DNA of 64,000 nucleotides from Bacteroidales bacterium (GTDB lineage: Bacteria > Bacteroidota > Bacteroidia > Bacteroidales > UBA932), in contig JAGBVU010000024.1 of the NCBI GenBank assembly GCA_017630155.1, forward strand, positions 62,001 through 126,000, in the 5' to 3' direction. This document shows positions 34,052 to 59,500 of the stretch, piece after piece. Numbering within the stretch: position 1 is the first letter of the stretch; every line of letters begins with the position of its first letter. Below the pieces are notes generated by a model, which was given only the letters and a program-made list of their open reading frames with translations, did no database searches and was not told where the DNA came from. Made by a program: the position numbers and the translations under genes.

Positions 34052-34642
34052 ATGTACGATTATATTTCAGGAAATATAGTGGAGCTTACCCCAGCAGAAA
34101 TGGTGGTGGACAACCATGGCATAGGGTACAGAATCCTCATCTCGCTACAGACATACTCTGCTCTGCAGGGCGCTTCAGATGGTAAAATATACATTTATCA
34201 CCATAAGCACGAAGATGATGAACTCTTCTACGGCTTTGCTGACAAACAGGAGAGGACCATTTTCACCCACCTGGTATCAGTTTCCGGTATCGGTCCCAAT
34301 ACTGCCAGGATGATGCTCTCCGCCCTCACCACCGATGAGGTACGTATGGCAATTATTACCGGAGATGTCAACAAAATCAAGAGTGTGAAAGGGATTGGGC
34401 TGAAAACAGCACAGAGGGCAATCATTGAGCTGAAGGACAAAGTGGGCAAGGATAGCACAACTGCCACCATAGACCTGGGAGTAGGCTTTGAGCAGAGCAG
34501 CCACAGAGAAGAGGCATATGGCGCCCTCATTACCCTGGGCTTCACAAAAGCAGCAGTAGAGAAGGTTCTGGACGCGATTTTGAAAAAAGAACCTGGTTGC
34601 TCTTCTGAAGAAATTATAAAGAAAGCCCTCAAGCTGCTGTAA
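34052..34642 (+). CDS. ruvA: Holliday junction DNA helicase subunit RuvA
   Basis: 196 aa. The tetramer binds four-way junctions and guides RuvB. The N-terminal OB fold (M-Y-D-Y-I-S-G, then G-I-G-Y-R-I), the helix-hairpin-helix pair (V-S-G-I-G-P-N-T-A, then V-K-G-I-G-L-K-T-A) and the C-terminal RuvB-binding domain (~150-196) are all present. ruvB is 20 kb away in this window, so the two are not an operon. Confidence 0.96.
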   Translation: MYDYISGNIVELTPAEMVVDNHGIGYRILISLQTYSALQGASDGKIYIYHHKHEDDELFYGFADKQERTIFTHLVSVSGIGPNTARMMLSALTTDEVRMAIITGDVNKIKSVKGIGLKTAQRAIIELKDKVGKDSTTATIDLGVGFEQSSHREEAYGALITLGFTKAAVEKVLDAILKKEPGCSSEEIIKKALKLL

Positions 34643-38639: not shown

Positions 38640-38672
38640 AAAAAAGATGTTCCACGTGGAACATCTTTTTTT
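38640..38672. terminator. Bidirectional terminator between the acyl-CoA ligase gene and mnmG, built on a parS palindrome
   Basis: A6, then a perfect inverted repeat GATGTTCCAC/GTGGAACATC, then T7. It can end both converging transcripts. The central 16 bases (38648-38663) are a parS-type site. The mnmG stop lies within this element's edge. Confidence 0.85.
38648..38663. promoter_or_regulatory. parS: parS-type site 1 (ParB-binding centromere)
   Basis: TGTTCCACGTGGAACA is a perfect 16-bp palindrome that fits the bacterial parS consensus TGTTNCACGTGNAACA; this very form is known from Pseudomonas chromosomes. Chromosomal parS sites cluster near oriC. Here it also forms the terminator stem. parA and parB are not in this window. 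Confidence 0.8.
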
Positions 38673-40635
38673 ATCTACCAAAGAAGACCAGAAGTACTGA
38701 GATATCTGCAGGAGAAACTCCTGGTATTCTCGATGCTTGAGAGATAGTCCTTGGTTTGTGCTTCATCAGTTTTTGCCTTGACTCGTAGGAGAGAGATGTG
38801 ACCTTCGAATAATCAAAATCTTCGGGAATAGATAAAGATTCCAATTTGGTCATCTTATCAGCAAGTCTTGATTCTCTCTCGATATAACCACTATACTTGA
38901 CAAGTATTTCTACTGACTCCAAAATCTCCTGAGCCAAATCCTCTTTAAATGTAAAAGGTACTGGAAGGTATGGAAGAGTAGTAAGGATATTCAAGCAGTT
39001 TGAATTATTGTCTAATGAAGAGATATCAATAGAGAAGTCATATGTTCCACGTGGAACATAATCTATCATATCCTTTATCCTTGTATCAGGACGTGTGAGA
39101 ATGGAAGAAAGAGTCTTGGAAGAATCTGTCTTTGCTGATCCTATAGATTCAAGATATGGATTGATTGTATCTGGTTTTACCTTTGTTGTATCGAATTTTG
39201 ATTTCAAAGAACCAACACTATCGTACTTCTTACACATTAGACTATATCTATACTCATCTGCTAGTCCTATGCTATGAGATATGGAGGTCAATCTCAAATC
39301 TGCATTATCCTGTCTAAGTAAGATTCTATACTCAGCTCTGGACGTAAACATTCTGTAGGGTTCATCCACACCTTTGGTTACTAGATCATCAATAAGGACA
39401 CCAATATAAGATTGATCCCTCTTAAGGATAAGAGGCTCCTTTCCTGAAAGATCAAGAGAAGCATTGATACCCGCCATCAGACCTTGGGCCGCAGCCTCTT
39501 CGTATCCTGTAGTTCCGTTAACCTGCCCTGCAAGATAAAGACCATCCACACATTTTGACTCGAGAGATGCTTTCAATTGGGTAGGATCAAAATAATCATA
39601 TTCTACTGCATATGCAGGTCTATAAATTCTGACATTCTCAAGCCCTTTTATACTATGTAATGCTTCCAACTGAGTATCAAGTGGAAGTGATGAAGAAAAT
39701 CCCTGAAGGTAATACTCATTGGTATGCCACCCTTCTGGTTCAAGGAATAATTGATGTTCATCCTTTCCAGGGAAGGTCCTAAGTTTATCTTCAATACTTG
39801 GGCAGTATCTTGGCCCTATCCCACTAATCTTACCTGAAAAAAGAGGCGAGAGATGAAAACCTGACTCAAGTATTGAATGGACATCCCTGTTTGTATGTAC
39901 TATGTAGCAATTGCGCTGTTTAACCCCACCTTGAACAGGGGAGTTGTAATTGAGGTAAGAGAACTTGTCTGGTGAAGGATCTCCCTCCTGAGGGATGAGC
40001 TTTGAGAAATCGATAGAAGATGCATCAATCCTTGGTGGGGTACCTGTCTTCATCCTCTGAGTAACAATACCTCTTTCAGCAAGTATTTCTGAGATATGAT
40101 AAGATGAGGGCTCCCCTATTCTTCCACTCTCTGCATCTTCCTGACCGACAAAAATTTTACCATTGAGGAATGTTCCAGCAGTAATGATAACCGCTTTTGC
40201 TTGAAAGAAAGCGCCCAACTGTGTTCTGACACCTGATACACGCGAACCTGAGAAGGTTATATCAGTGGCTGTATCTGCCCAAATATCTAAGTTACAGGTA
40301 GTTTCGAGGATATAACGCCAGTTCCAGGAAAAGTGTATTCTATCACACTGAGCTCTTGGACTCCACATAGCCGGTCCTTTTGATCTGTTGAGCATCCTGA
40401 ATTGGATCGTACTGGCATCTGTCACTATGCCTGTGTAACCACCCAAAGCATCTATCTCTCTCACTATCTGACCCTTAGCAATACCACCGATGGCTGGATT
40501 ACAAGACATTTGGGCGATCTTGTTCATATCCATGGTAATAAGAAGAGTCTTTCTACCCATATTGGCAGCTGCAGCTGCAGCTTCACATCCTGCATGACCT
40601 GCCCCAATAACAACAATATCGTAACTAAGATTCAT
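38671..40635 (-). CDS. mnmG: tRNA U34 carboxymethylaminomethyl-modifying enzyme MnmG (GidA)
   Basis: 654 aa. With MnmE it modifies the wobble uridine of several tRNAs. FAD-binding [10 protein letters not shown] (12-21), [11 protein letters not shown] (45-55), the second motif [31 protein letters not shown], and the C-terminal [14 protein letters not shown] complete the family pattern. It starts 11 bases inside the end of ybeY, so the two are translationally linked. The gene contains the second parS-type site (39043-39058), coding Y-V-P-R-G-T-Y. gidA/mnmG is often origin-proximal. Confidence 0.97.
39043..39058. promoter_or_regulatory. parS: parS-type site 2, inside mnmG
   Basis: The same 16-mer TGTTCCACGTGGAACA, 395 bp from site 1, and extended by one T/A pair on each side to an 18-bp identity-free palindrome (39041-39060 is self-complementary). 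It lies within the mnmG coding sequence, where it encodes V-P-R-G-T. Confidence 0.8.
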
Positions 40636-53898: not shown

Positions 53899-55086
53899 TT
53901 TCATACTCTTAAAAGCTTTTTCCACTTTACCGAAGTAATCTGTGTATAGATTGCTGAGTTTTTTAGGACTCATATCTTTATTGAAGTTTTCGAAAATATA
54001 GTTCTCTACCTCTTTTAGCTGTTGAGAATAACCGGTTCCTTCTTGATTATAGAGGTAGTTGAAGCGGAAATATTTATTACCATTTCCTCTCTTGACAGGG
54101 AATACATTCTTCTTAAGTTCAAGAACCATATCACACATAAGTGCATTCTCAGAATTTTCGCTCTTTACCATAAATGAAGGGATATTTTCACCATTAGCCA
54201 CTACCATAGGTACAGCTACACCAAGTGGAGGATAACCGAGAATTGCCCACATTACTGTCTTGGAAGCATCCTCACCAGGTTTCACACCCTGGAATACCAT
54301 TGAAGCAGAAGATGAACGTCTGGGAACGAAGTCTTGGTCTATAAACCAACCGGAAGCCAACTCCTGATCTTTTCTAAGGTCCACTTCAAGAAGTGAGTGG
54401 TAGAAAGATCTTGATATATTCTCAAAAATCCACTGTACATCCACTTTACCACCCTCTTTAATAACATAGTTTTCTACGTTATAGGTAGTGTTGCAGTTAC
54501 GGATATAACCCATACCTTCATCCTCTCTACCTGTATATGAGAAATTGGTAACGATAAAATAGCCGTTAGGGGCTACATTTGGATCATTGACATCAAGTTT
54601 GTTCCATTTGTGATTGTTTACCTCATAATAGGCAGCACCACCTTCAGAATCGATAACTCCGAAGTTACCCTCAACACCCATAGGTCTGGTAAGTGTATCG
54701 AGAAAATATTCAAAATCCTTAAGGTTTTTACATACACCCAAAGCTTTGAACATCAACTCACCCTCTCTATCCATCATTGATGAAGGTACATCATCATCTT
54801 TTAGGTTATAAGATGCTGTATTGATAATAGAGAAACCCACATTATTGCTTCCTGACCATGCTACACCACCCTCACTTGGACTGTCAACCAAAGCCAAAAA
54901 ACCATATTTAGGACCCTGGAAGTACTCAATCCTATTGTTGAGTTCACCAGTATCCCTATGTTTGAGAAGTAGAGGTCTCCCATCTTTAGTCACCTTACCT
55001 GTAAAAATTGCGGAGGTGCAGGAAATCGCCTCATTGAATGGTACCAATAGTAAAATTGAAACCAGAATAGTAAGAATTTTTTTCAT
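53896..55086 (-). CDS. Secreted Ntn-hydrolase of the choloylglycine/AAT (linear amide C-N hydrolase) type
   Basis: 396 aa. A signal peptide (~1-22) ends exactly before Cys23 (E-A-I-S-C-T-S-A-I-F), so cleavage there would expose an N-terminal cysteine nucleophile, the rule for Ntn-hydrolases. L-L-L-K-H-R-D-T-G-E and G-F-S-I-I-N-T-A-S-Y (Asn) agree with the family. Substrates in this group include penicillin amides, bile salts and acylated amino acids; none can be singled out. Alternatively it could be a lipoprotein, but the motif before the Cys is not a lipobox. Lies 5 bases after ruvB, so it may ride on its transcript. Confidence 0.8.
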   Translation of the reverse strand: MKKILTILVSILLLVPFNEAISCTSAIFTGKVTKDGRPLLLKHRDTGELNNRIEYFQGPKYGFLALVDSPSEGGVAWSGSNNVGFSIINTASYNLKDDDVPSSMMDREGELMFKALGVCKNLKDFEYFLDTLTRPMGVEGNFGVIDSEGGAAYYEVNNHKWNKLDVNDPNVAPNGYFIVTNFSYTGREDEGMGYIRNCNTTYNVENYVIKEGGKVDVQWIFENISRSFYHSLLEVDLRKDQELASGWFIDQDFVPRRSSSASMVFQGVKPGEDASKTVMWAILGYPPLGVAVPMVVANGENIPSFMVKSENSENALMCDMVLELKKNVFPVKRGNGNKYFRFNYLYNQEGTGYSQQLKEVENYIFENFNKDMSPKKLSNLYTDYFGKVEKAFKSMK

Positions 55087-55091
55087 ATCAG

Positions 55092-56123
55092 TTAAAATAA
55101 AGTATTGTTTTCAGTGTATTTGTTCAGTCCCAAATGTTTGTATGCAAGTTCAGTAACCTCCCTTCCACGTGGAGTTCTCTGAATAAATCCCTCTTTGATA
55201 AGGAAAGGTTCATAAACCTCCTCTACAGTACCGGGATCTTCACCTATCGCTGTAGCAATAGTGGTAATACCGACTGGGCCACCTTTGAATTTCTGGATTA
55301 TAGCTGTCAAAATCTTGTTATCAATCAACTCAAGTCCCCTTTTATCTATATTGAGAGCTTCAAGTGCATATTTTGTAATAGGTAGATCGATAACTCCACT
55401 CCCTTTGACCTGGGCAAAATCCCTGACCCTACGGAGCAATGAGTTTGCTATTCTCGGGGTACCACGGCTTCTGCAAGCTATCTCTTTTGCTGCATCGGTA
55501 TCGATATCTATATCAAGTATGGTGGCACTCCTTTTAATTATATTGACAAGTGTTTCCGAATCATAATACTCCAAATGGGATTGTATACCGAATCTTGCCC
55601 TTAAAGGTGATGTAAGGAGGCCACTTCTGGTGGTAGCACCAACCAGTGTGAAAGGGTTTAGTGATATCTGGACAGAACGGGCACCAGGACCTTTATCTAT
55701 CATTATATCTATAGTGTAATCCTCCATAGCGGAATAAAGATACTCCTCCACCACTGGAGATAATCTGTGTATCTCATCTATAAACAGGACATCTCCAGGT
55801 TCCAGCCCTGTAAGAAGACCTGCCAGATCACCAGGCTTATCCAAAACGGGACCTGATGTTATTTTCATATTGACCCCCATCTCATTTGCTACAATGTGTG
55901 CAAGGGTGGTTTTGCCAAGACCTGGAGGGCCATGAAGCAGAACATGATCAAGGGCCTCACCCCTGAGCTTGGCAGCCTGAACAAAAACTTTCAGATTTTC
56001 GAGGATTTTCTCCTGACCCGAAAACTCACCAAACCCCTGAGGGCGTATCTTCCCCTCAAAATCTCCGTCTCTGGAACTGCTTGCAGAGTGAATGTCAAAC
56101 CTATCTTTAAACTCTTCCGCCAT
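55092..56123 (-). CDS. ruvB: Holliday junction branch-migration ATPase RuvB
   Basis: 343 aa. Walker [12 protein letters not shown] (~65), Walker B with D-E-I-H-R-L, sensor [18 protein letters not shown] and the C-terminal winged helix with G-R-E-V-T-E-L-A (T-P-R-G-R) are intact. The minus-strand -7 element TATATTTG (56150-56143) is 20 bases before the start. First gene of a pair with the Ntn-hydrolase gene; divergent from mfd across the AT-rich gap. Confidence 0.97.
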
Positions 56124-56142
56124 TTTTTAACAAATTACATTA

Positions 56143-56150
56143 CAAATATA
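56143..56150 (-). promoter_or_regulatory. -7 element of ruvB
   Basis: Minus-strand TATATTTG, a perfect match, 20 bases before the ruvB start. Confidence 0.6.
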
Positions 56151-56505
56151 TTATTTAATTAAATATTTATTGTTCTTTATTATTAGTTGTTAATTTGGTT
56201 GATAACTTTTTTATTAACATATATTGACAATATTTAAACATTTTAGGTAATATGTTATATTTTTATAAAATATTGATTCATAGAAGTATAATCACATTTA
56301 ATAGATATAATTGTTAATAAGTGATATAAATAGCCAACAGTTTTAACATGTTGAAAACAGCTATAAAAAATCATATAGAAATAATAATATCAAATGTATT
56401 GTTTTTGGAAAAGTTGAACATATAACCAAAGAAACAAATAATAGAAATTTATTTTATATAACTTTTTAACACTGTTATTAAGGAGTTATTAACAGTGAAA
56501 AATCA

Positions 56506-56513
56506 TATCTTTG
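56506..56513 (+). promoter_or_regulatory. -7 element of mfd
   Basis: TATCTTTG, a perfect match, 16 bases before the ATG at 56530 and 7 before an in-frame TTG. No TTTG is seen at the normal -33 distance. Confidence 0.65.
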
Positions 56514-56529
56514 CACTCTGTTGAAGAAT

Positions 56530-59500
56530 ATGAATAAAAAAGGTATCCTTGATAAGCATAAAATAAAAGAACTTGCTGATGGTATCCTCGATTCCAGCAT
56601 CAGGAACATATCTGTAAAGGGGGTATATTCATCTGCGAAATCATTTGCCATATCTTCCTCTGTAACAAAGGGTATACATTTTGTAATCCTTAACAGAAGG
56701 GAGGATGCGGCAGGCTGTATAAATGACCTGTACAACCTTATTGGCGAAGATAATGTTTTCTTTTTTCCACCTTCTAAAGACTTTTCAACAAAAGTTCAAC
56801 GCACGGCGGCTGTAGGGGCTGTATCTGATTATAAAAACGGCAAATCTCCATTCCCTTTTATTGTACTTGTGGCATACAGAGACTCTTTTGATGAGGGGAT
56901 ATTGGATGACAATCTGTTGAAGAAAAGCATTATATCGATAAAGAGGGGAGATAGTATTTCCCATGAATTTCTTAAAGAACTCCTTTTTGATTCGGGTTTC
57001 AACAAAGCAGATTTTGTGTCGCAGCCAGGTGAGTTTGCCATCAGAGGCAGTATTATAGATGTATTTTCTTACGGAGACAACCAGCCATACAGGATAGATT
57101 TCTTCGGGGATGATATAGAGAGCATAAAAATGTTCAATGCAAATACTCAGAGATCCGAGAAAGAGGTACAGGTATTGGATATATATCCCAATATCACCTC
57201 ATCACTTGAGAGCGAAACATCTGTACCTGTTCTCGAGTTTTTGCCGGAGGATAGCGTTATCTGGCTTTCTGATGTGGAGAAGAGTGATATCTATAACAGT
57301 ACTCACAAACATATTTATCTCTCAACTCTTGGAAATGAACATATCACTTATGATAAGGAGATAATATTCAGAACAGCACCCCAACCTACTTTCAACAAGC
57401 ATTTTGAGGTGCTTGCAGATGATATAAGGTCCAAAAGGGAAGAGGGTTTTTCGGTATATATACTCAGTGAGAGCATATCCCAGATCGAGCGTCTAAAGAG
57501 TATATTTTCCACACACAATCTGGTTTTGAATTATGAGACATACACTATACACGAAGGATTTATCGATTACGATACTAAAATATGTCTCTATACAGACCAC
57601 CAGATTTTTGACAGGTACAGACGTCTTAAACTAAAAAGATCTGTAGAGAAGAGTGAGAGACTTACCATCAATGACTTGAATGCTTTTCATGAAGGGGATT
57701 ATATTGTACATATAGATCATGGTGTGGGTAGGTTTGGCGGACTCGTCAAGAATAATATCAATGGCAGGATCCAGGAGGCAGTGAAGCTTATTTTCAAGGA
57801 TAATGATGTCCTTTTTGTATCCATACACAGTCTCCATAGAATATCAAAATACAAATCAGCAGATTCTACACCTCCCAAAATATATAAATTGGGTACAGGG
57901 GCATGGCAGAAGCTAAAAACTACTACCAAATCCAAAGTAAAGGATATAGCAGCAGACTTGATCCGTCTTTATGCTCAGAGAAAGGTGGCAGAGGGTTTTG
58001 CTTTTTCTCCGGATTCATATTTACAGAAAGAGCTCGAATCGTCTTTTATATATGAGGAGACTCCTGACCAATTGAAGGCCCTGAAAGCTATAAAGGAGGA
58101 TATGGAGAAGGGGTACCCGATGGACCGTCTTATCTGCGGAGATGTGGGGTTTGGTAAAACAGAGGTGGCAGTAAGGGCTGCTTTCAAGGCTGTTGCAGAC
58201 AGCAAACAGGTGGCTGTTCTGGTCCCCACTACGATTCTGGCCCTGCAGCATTACAATACTTTCCTTGACAGATTGAAGAATTTCCCCTGCAATATCGATT
58301 ATGTGAGCAGGTTGAGGAGTGCTAAAGAGGTGAGGGATATTGCAGAGAGGTTAAAGAGTGGAAAAATAGATATACTTATAGGTACCCACAGATTATTGAA
58401 TAAGGAGTTCCTCTTCAAAGATCTGGGTCTGCTTATAATTGATGAGGAGCATAAGTTCGGTGTGGCTGCCAAGGAGAGGTTAAGGCATTTGAAACTCTCG
58501 GTGGACACTTTGACATTGTCTGCAACACCTATTCCAAGGACCCTACAGTTCTCTCTTCTGGGAGCAAGGGATCTCTCCATCATAAATACCCCTCCACCCA
58601 ACAGAATACCTGTCCAGACAGAGATAATAGATTTTGAGGAGGATGTAATAAGGGATATCCTCACTTCTGAGCTTGAAAGGGGCGGACAGATATTTTTCAT
58701 ACATAACAAGATAGAGGATATTGATGGCATAGAGGATATAGTAAGGAGGATTTGTCCGGGTATCAAGACCTGTGTGGCTCACGGCAGGATGGAGCCGACC
58801 GAGATTGAGAAGAAGATCCTCAACTTTATGGCTGGAGATTATGATATCCTTATATCTACAACTATTGTGGAGAATGGTATCGATATCCCCAATGCCAATA
58901 CCATAATAATAAACAAAGCACAGAATTTTGGTTTGAGTGACCTGCACCAGTTGAGGGGAAGGGTGGGGCGTTCAAACAGGAAAGCATTCTGCTACCTTAT
59001 TGTCCCCCCTCTTATTTCAGTTACAGATGATGCCAGAAGGAGGCTGAAAGCGATAGAGGCATTCTCTGATCTGGGAAGCGGATTTAATATTGCAATGCAG
59101 GATCTTGATATCCGTGGAATGGGAAATATGCTCGGTGCAGAACAGAGTGGTTTCATTGCAGATATGGGTTTTGAGACTTACCAGAGAATTCTGGCTGAGG
59201 CTTTCGAGGAGATCAAACAGGATTATTCAAAAGAGAATCCTGATGAGACACCTCAGGAGGATCTGGAGAACCAATGTTATGTAAATGATTGTGCAGTAGA
59301 GACAGACCTCCAGCTTCTGATTCCGGATACCTATATAAATATACAGGCAGAAAAGATAAGGCTCTACAGGGAGTTGGACAATATATCGGACGAGGAGGAG
59401 CTGGGAAGATTTATATCAAGTCTCGAGGACAGATTCGGTCCCATTCCGGATGAGGTAAGGGAGTTGTGTTTTGTGGTGAGGTTAAGGTGGCTGGCCAAGG

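Follow-up and report, generated by a model that had tools for sequence, protein, structure and literature searches.

A probable chromosomal replication origin between ruvB and mfd in a Bacteroidales genome

We analysed a 64-kb stretch of the genome of an uncultured gut Bacteroidales bacterium (the window; positions 62001-126000 of the 247.6-kb contig C19 in G000, a 2.0-Mb genome in 34 contigs), in which a preliminary description had proposed the gap between ruvB and mfd as a candidate chromosomal origin. The proposal is supported by a GC-skew minimum, an enrichment of DnaA boxes, a conserved linkage to parS and mnmG and the skew of three relatives. We consider it highly probable (roughly 0.93) that the gap is a DnaA-dependent oriC with BUS-type melting on its ruvB side, outward forks and ParABS segregation. 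It is a normal kind of origin, clearly visible and conserved across relatives, and as such a solid and unsurprising one. The closest named relatives of the genome, L044 and L045, are Bacteroidales MAGs recovered from the colon of water buffalo and sheep.

An AT-rich gap with a cluster of DnaA boxes

The description of the gap as 0.4 kb of AT-rich, gene-free DNA between divergent genes was confirmed: it lies between the starts of ruvB (minus strand) and mfd (plus strand), is 82% AT and is the most AT-rich 400 bp in the window. An Rfam search of positions 55000-57500 gave zero matches. The gap and its flanks contain the following features.

55092-56123, minus strand: ruvB (NCBIfam equivalog), its start bordering the gap
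56124-56529, no strand: oriC candidate, the intergenic gap between divergent ruvB and mfd, based on AT content, skew minimum, boxes and conserved box enrichment
56135-56184, no strand: probable DNA unwinding element (DUE), with the lowest duplex stability of any 50 bp in the 64-kb window (nearest-neighbour energy), abutting the box pair
56143-56150, minus strand: ruvB promoter -7 element TATATTTG (Bacteroidetes TAnnTTTG); the 9-mer ACAAATATA is in 41 of 45 gaps
56177-56185, minus strand: candidate DnaA-trios TAA TAA TAA, 11 nt past the box at 56197-56205; also in same-genus L044
56188-56196, minus strand: weak downstream DnaA box AAATTAACA, abutting the next box; a tandem abutting pair in most relatives
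56197-56205, minus strand: DnaA box TTATCAACC, upstream member of the pair, 1 mismatch; near-constant distance to the ruvB promoter element
56211-56219, plus strand: DnaA box TTATTAACA, exact; TTATCAACA or TTATCCACA at the same place in same-genus genomes
56312-56320, minus strand: DnaA box TTATTAACA, exact
56349-56357, minus strand: DnaA box TTTTCAACA, 1 mismatch; 9-mer enriched in the gaps of relatives
56463-56471, plus strand: DnaA box TTTTTAACA, 1 mismatch; TTATCAACA there in both same-genus genomes
56473-56481, minus strand: weak DnaA box TTAATAACA, 1 mismatch; may be a chance occurrence
56486-56494, plus strand: DnaA box TTATTAACA, exact; invariant with its flanks (GAGTTATTAACA) in the three same-genus genomes
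56506-56513, plus strand: mfd promoter -7 element TATCTTTG (TAnnTTTG consensus); TATCTTTGC is in 13 of 45 gaps
56530 (ATG) or in-frame 56521 (TTG), plus strand: start of mfd (NCBIfam equivalog)

Exact copies of TTATTAACA occur three times in the window (0.77 expected), and all three are inside the gap (56211+, 56312- and 56486+). For the gap itself, dinucleotide-preserving shuffles gave an expectation of 0.09 copies, and three were reached in 0 of 5000. The 2.0-Mb genome has 17 copies, with no cluster of three besides the one in the gap, and 52 copies of TTATYAACA, those of the window all falling in the gap. With one mismatch allowed, the window has 51 sites and the gap eight of these (three exact and five with one mismatch in 400 bp), the densest cluster in the window; elsewhere the maximum is two per 400 bp. 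The three exact copies reported previously stand, while the reported total of five box-like nonamers was too low. The composition-matched shuffles and the conservation described below answer the accompanying caution that AT-rich DNA can yield nonamers of this type by chance. An intergenic cluster of DnaA boxes beyond chance is among the features by which an oriC is recognised. Within the genus, the boxes vary mostly at degenerate positions, with TTATTAACA, TTATCAACA and TTATCCACA found at one site.

Conservation of the box array in relatives

Divergent ruvB and mfd were found in 51 of 80 named loci, which together with the window gave 45 non-redundant gaps. The most enriched 9-mer in these gaps is TTATCAACA, seen 59 times versus 0.5 expected, and TTTTCAACA (38 versus 0.95) and TTATTAACA (48 versus 1.9) are also near the top. 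This gives the group's own DnaA box, TTAT(C/T)AACA, derived here template-free. In many of the 20-kb loci the gap holds all TTATYAACA sites. Boxes are retained in most gaps of a GC-rich rumen group (L092-L123). The gaps of this group also have a recurring AACCCTGTT (17-18 gaps), partly in 12-bp spaced rows of boxes (TTATAAACAGGGTTATCAACA) at the mfd end. In several termite-gut 'Prevotellaceae' MAGs (L065-L078) the ruvB loci are mostly without a divergent mfd and without DnaA boxes, and the origin of these genomes must lie elsewhere or have changed.

A putative unwinding module flanked by outward promoters

Computed stability identifies the segment at 56135-56184 as the probable DUE, and an easily melted, AT-rich DUE beside the boxes is a further feature expected of oriC. 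The published BUS rule consists of a box, a spacer of 10-13 nt and at least three NAN trios (PMC8287927); membership was scored here with a box of at most two mismatches, a spacer of up to 16 nt and at least three NAN trios. The module in the window, TTATCAACC-AAATTAACA-AC-TAATAATAA, conforms to the published rule. Like the B. subtilis BUS (PMC8287927), it has tandem boxes, an 11-nt spacer from the better box to at least three NAN trios, and AT-rich DNA beyond. Unlike the B. subtilis BUS, its boxes abut without a gap and are TTATCAACA-like instead of TTATCCACA, its trios are TAA/TAT instead of 5'-TAG, and the site is away from dnaA.

Of the 39 scored gaps, nearly all have the box module on the minus strand, at some 45-51 nt from the ruvB promoter element; its order on the ruvB side is a box, a directly abutting weaker box (in most gaps), 2-3 nt and an A-rich stretch. 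When one box mismatch was allowed in these 39 gaps, NAN trios were present in the gaps of relatives at 38% for spacer 11 and 41% for spacer 12, versus 16% expected, values that are only suggestive of trio conservation beyond base composition in the sequences compared. A trio scan anchored on exact box patterns detected no A-periodicity and missed the window's own module.

Elements fitting the Bacteroidetes -7 promoter consensus TAnnTTTG (PMC7366714) are found at both ends of the gap. These are also what would be expected if the nonamers were operators, serving DnaA or a different regulator in the control of transcription from the divergent ruvB and mfd promoters, and had no origin activity. 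DnaA doubles as a transcription factor, in keeping with such a role. We regard this explanation as very improbable: GC skew reverses at the gap on C19 and scores best there in all three of the single-contig relatives, other families carry the box array next to nadA, and the spacing to the DUE is fixed.

Linkage to parS and mnmG

Two parS-type sites had been noted 17 kb from the gap. Both are exact, and they are the only exact parS sites in the genome.

38648-38663, no strand: parS TGTTCCACGTGGAACA, exact 16-mer, just past the mnmG stop
39043-39058, no strand: parS TGTTCCACGTGGAACA, exact 16-mer, within mnmG
38671-40635, minus strand: mnmG, ~16 kb from the gap

We found parS in or beside mnmG in all 10 of the other genomes examined. 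The distance between parS and ruvB is 5-17.5 kb in six genomes including G000; in the five relatives, where the two are on the same contig, it is 5-15 kb. Chromosomal ParB genes are present, and together with parS near the probable origin they make up the arrangement expected for ParABS. Elsewhere in the genome (C3:40661-41173, L201) is a gene for a second ParB-like protein that passes the family cut-off, with a weaker one nearby, and this locus is perhaps a mobile element.

The order at the E. coli origin is gidA/mnmG-oriC-mioC. The gap resembles it in having mnmG in the origin neighbourhood and an AT-rich DUE beside DnaA boxes, but here mnmG is ~16 kb away with parS in or beside it, and the direct neighbours are ruvB and mfd, or nadA. 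Given that mnmG adjoins oriC in some bacteria and that parS sits at mnmG, the true origin could lie nearby (for example at mnmG-parS), leaving the gap as a secondary DnaA reservoir. We consider this even less probable than the operator explanation, as the skew minimum is in the gap, away from mnmG, in both G000 and G012, and the gap holds all TTATYAACA sites of the window.

GC skew

Computed along 226 kb of C19 (247.6 kb in total), cumulative GC skew forms a single deep V, falling for ~118 kb to a minimum at C19:118143 (window 56143) and rising for ~90 kb, with the caveat that gene orientation contributes to GC skew. This bears out the apparent change of strand composition at the gap. The preliminary description had held that a skew minimum elsewhere would count against an origin; the C19 minimum is inside the gap, and no comparable one was seen in five other large contigs sampled by stretches. 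These comprised 20 stretches of C7, C25, C28, C33 and C34, with the dnaA-bearing C34 also covered over its initial 40 kb; the sampled stretches are nearly all of one sign, and near zero in two places. On its own chromosome, as covered by sampled stretches, the site has the skew minimum expected of oriC.

Since the genome consists of 34 unordered contigs, whole-chromosome skew was scored on single-contig relatives (G013, G006 and G060), taking 20 stretches from each and comparing right-half minus left-half skew for origins placed at 5-kb steps. The start of ruvB ties the best-scoring origin position tried in each (permutation p 0.0002 in G013, 0.00005 in G006 and 0.00025 in G060), the last test being the roughest of the three because a contig covering 2.18 Mb of a 2.8-Mb genome was handled as if circular. 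A 60-kb stretch of G012 reaches its skew minimum inside the ruvB-mfd gap, and in G017, where the ruvB neighbourhood is rearranged, the local 60-kb minimum is ~15 kb from ruvB. A third alternative, that the nonamers TTATTAACA are given by AT-rich DNA (AT content here is 82%, and the flanking genes diverge) and that the skew switch comes from divergent gene orientation, a recent inversion or misassembly, is as improbable as an origin at mnmG-parS: the absence of three TTATTAACA from all 5000 shuffles refutes it for the box cluster, the skew arms extend ~118 and ~90 kb, and three independent assemblies agree on this position as an optimum.

No skew switch was found in two sampled contigs of the GC-rich rumen group. 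The skew around ruvB had seemed reversed in this group, an impression that was dropped, as the two contigs have 52-61% GC and hardly any skew. On C19, positions 210001-226000 (L041) are low in GC (36-42%) and have mostly negative skew against the replichore trend; this is perhaps a mobile island or an inverted piece.

Distance from dnaA and comparison with predicted origins

That dnaA is not adjacent to the gap, as previously described, agrees with its location on a different contig in G000 (C34:22014-23396, over cut-off) and 1.04 Mb and 0.60 Mb from the ruvB start in G013 and G006, respectively, the two relatives in which it was located. Placing the origin at dnaA in G013 and G006 gave a skew score of about zero. 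The G000 DnaA aligns over its full length, including domain IV, with a solved DnaA (8btg). Adjacency to dnaA, a common but non-defining trait of oriC, is absent for the gap. This is ordinary for the phylum, since oriC is reported to be commonly far from dnaA in Bacteroidetes (PMC4755523), as the preliminary description had also stated, and for the same reason Bacteroidetes origins are hard to annotate.

The gap is similar to predicted Bacteroidetes oriCs (such as that of Prevotella intermedia chromosome 1, PMC4755523; DoriC) in being an intergenic box cluster of ~0.4-0.5 kb at a GC-skew transition, far from dnaA. While the P. intermedia oriC was found with E. coli boxes in Ori-Finder (PMC4755523), the present case uses the group's own box TTAT(C/T)AACA, obtained template-free, and has named flanks (ruvB and mfd) and comparative support. 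The open literature yielded nothing useful on ruvB or mfd beside a Bacteroidetes origin, on the box sequence or on Bacteroidetes DnaA-trios. A fixed origin provides a start point for coverage-based growth-rate estimates and for contig ordering of these genomes, the group-specific DnaA box can serve in origin finding, and the gap could be used as a defined 0.4-kb substrate for testing unwinding in another phylum.

Proposed mechanism

The box cluster, skew switch, conservation, computed DUE position and parS linkage lead us to propose that bidirectional replication would start from the gap as its only origin. DnaA, the product of a distant gene, would bind the array of TTAT(T/C)AACA boxes, and an ATP-DnaA filament starting from the abutting boxes at 56188-56205 (minus strand) would extend onto the A-rich trios at 56177-56185 and melt the adjoining DUE at 56135-56184, as in the B. 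subtilis BUS. DnaB helicases would then load, sending one fork left via ruvB toward mnmG-parS and the other right via mfd. ParB bound at parS 17 kb off would move the new origins apart. The promoters at the two gap ends would point outward, and negative supercoils left between them may aid melting.

Related gaps beside nadA in other families

In three genomes of other families (G037, G055 and G058), the DNA upstream of nadA contains an AT-rich gap in which box-like sites occur, at a distance of 10-21 kb from mnmG-parS. An abutting pair, TTATCAACA-ATATCAACA, is clear in G037, followed by GGC-TAT-TAT, and is weaker in G055; the local skew minimum is at the nadA gap in G055 and 4 kb off in G037. 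The order in G058 is ruvB-nadA-gap. In G049, inspection around mnmG-parS and ruvB revealed no origin. A search for nadA (quinolinate synthase) in 10 genomes of the family did not find it in eight (G000, G001, G002, G006, G007, G017, G018 and G035), and G012 and G013 retain it elsewhere. We infer that the origin stayed in place and that ruvB was brought to it when the intervening nadA was lost or moved. A broader possibility, to which we give slightly less than even odds, is that two abutting TTATCAACA-type boxes, a short spacer, A-trios and a DUE form an origin module of the Bacteroidales that has stayed intact 5-21 kb from mnmG-parS while exchanging its direct neighbours (nadA in the three other families, ruvB here, perhaps via loss or relocation of nadA from a G058-like order), and that DnaA has become adapted to an A in position 6 of the box. 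In the window, ruvA (34052-34642) is ~20 kb from ruvB (55092-56123); the two do not form an operon, and both are in the origin region.
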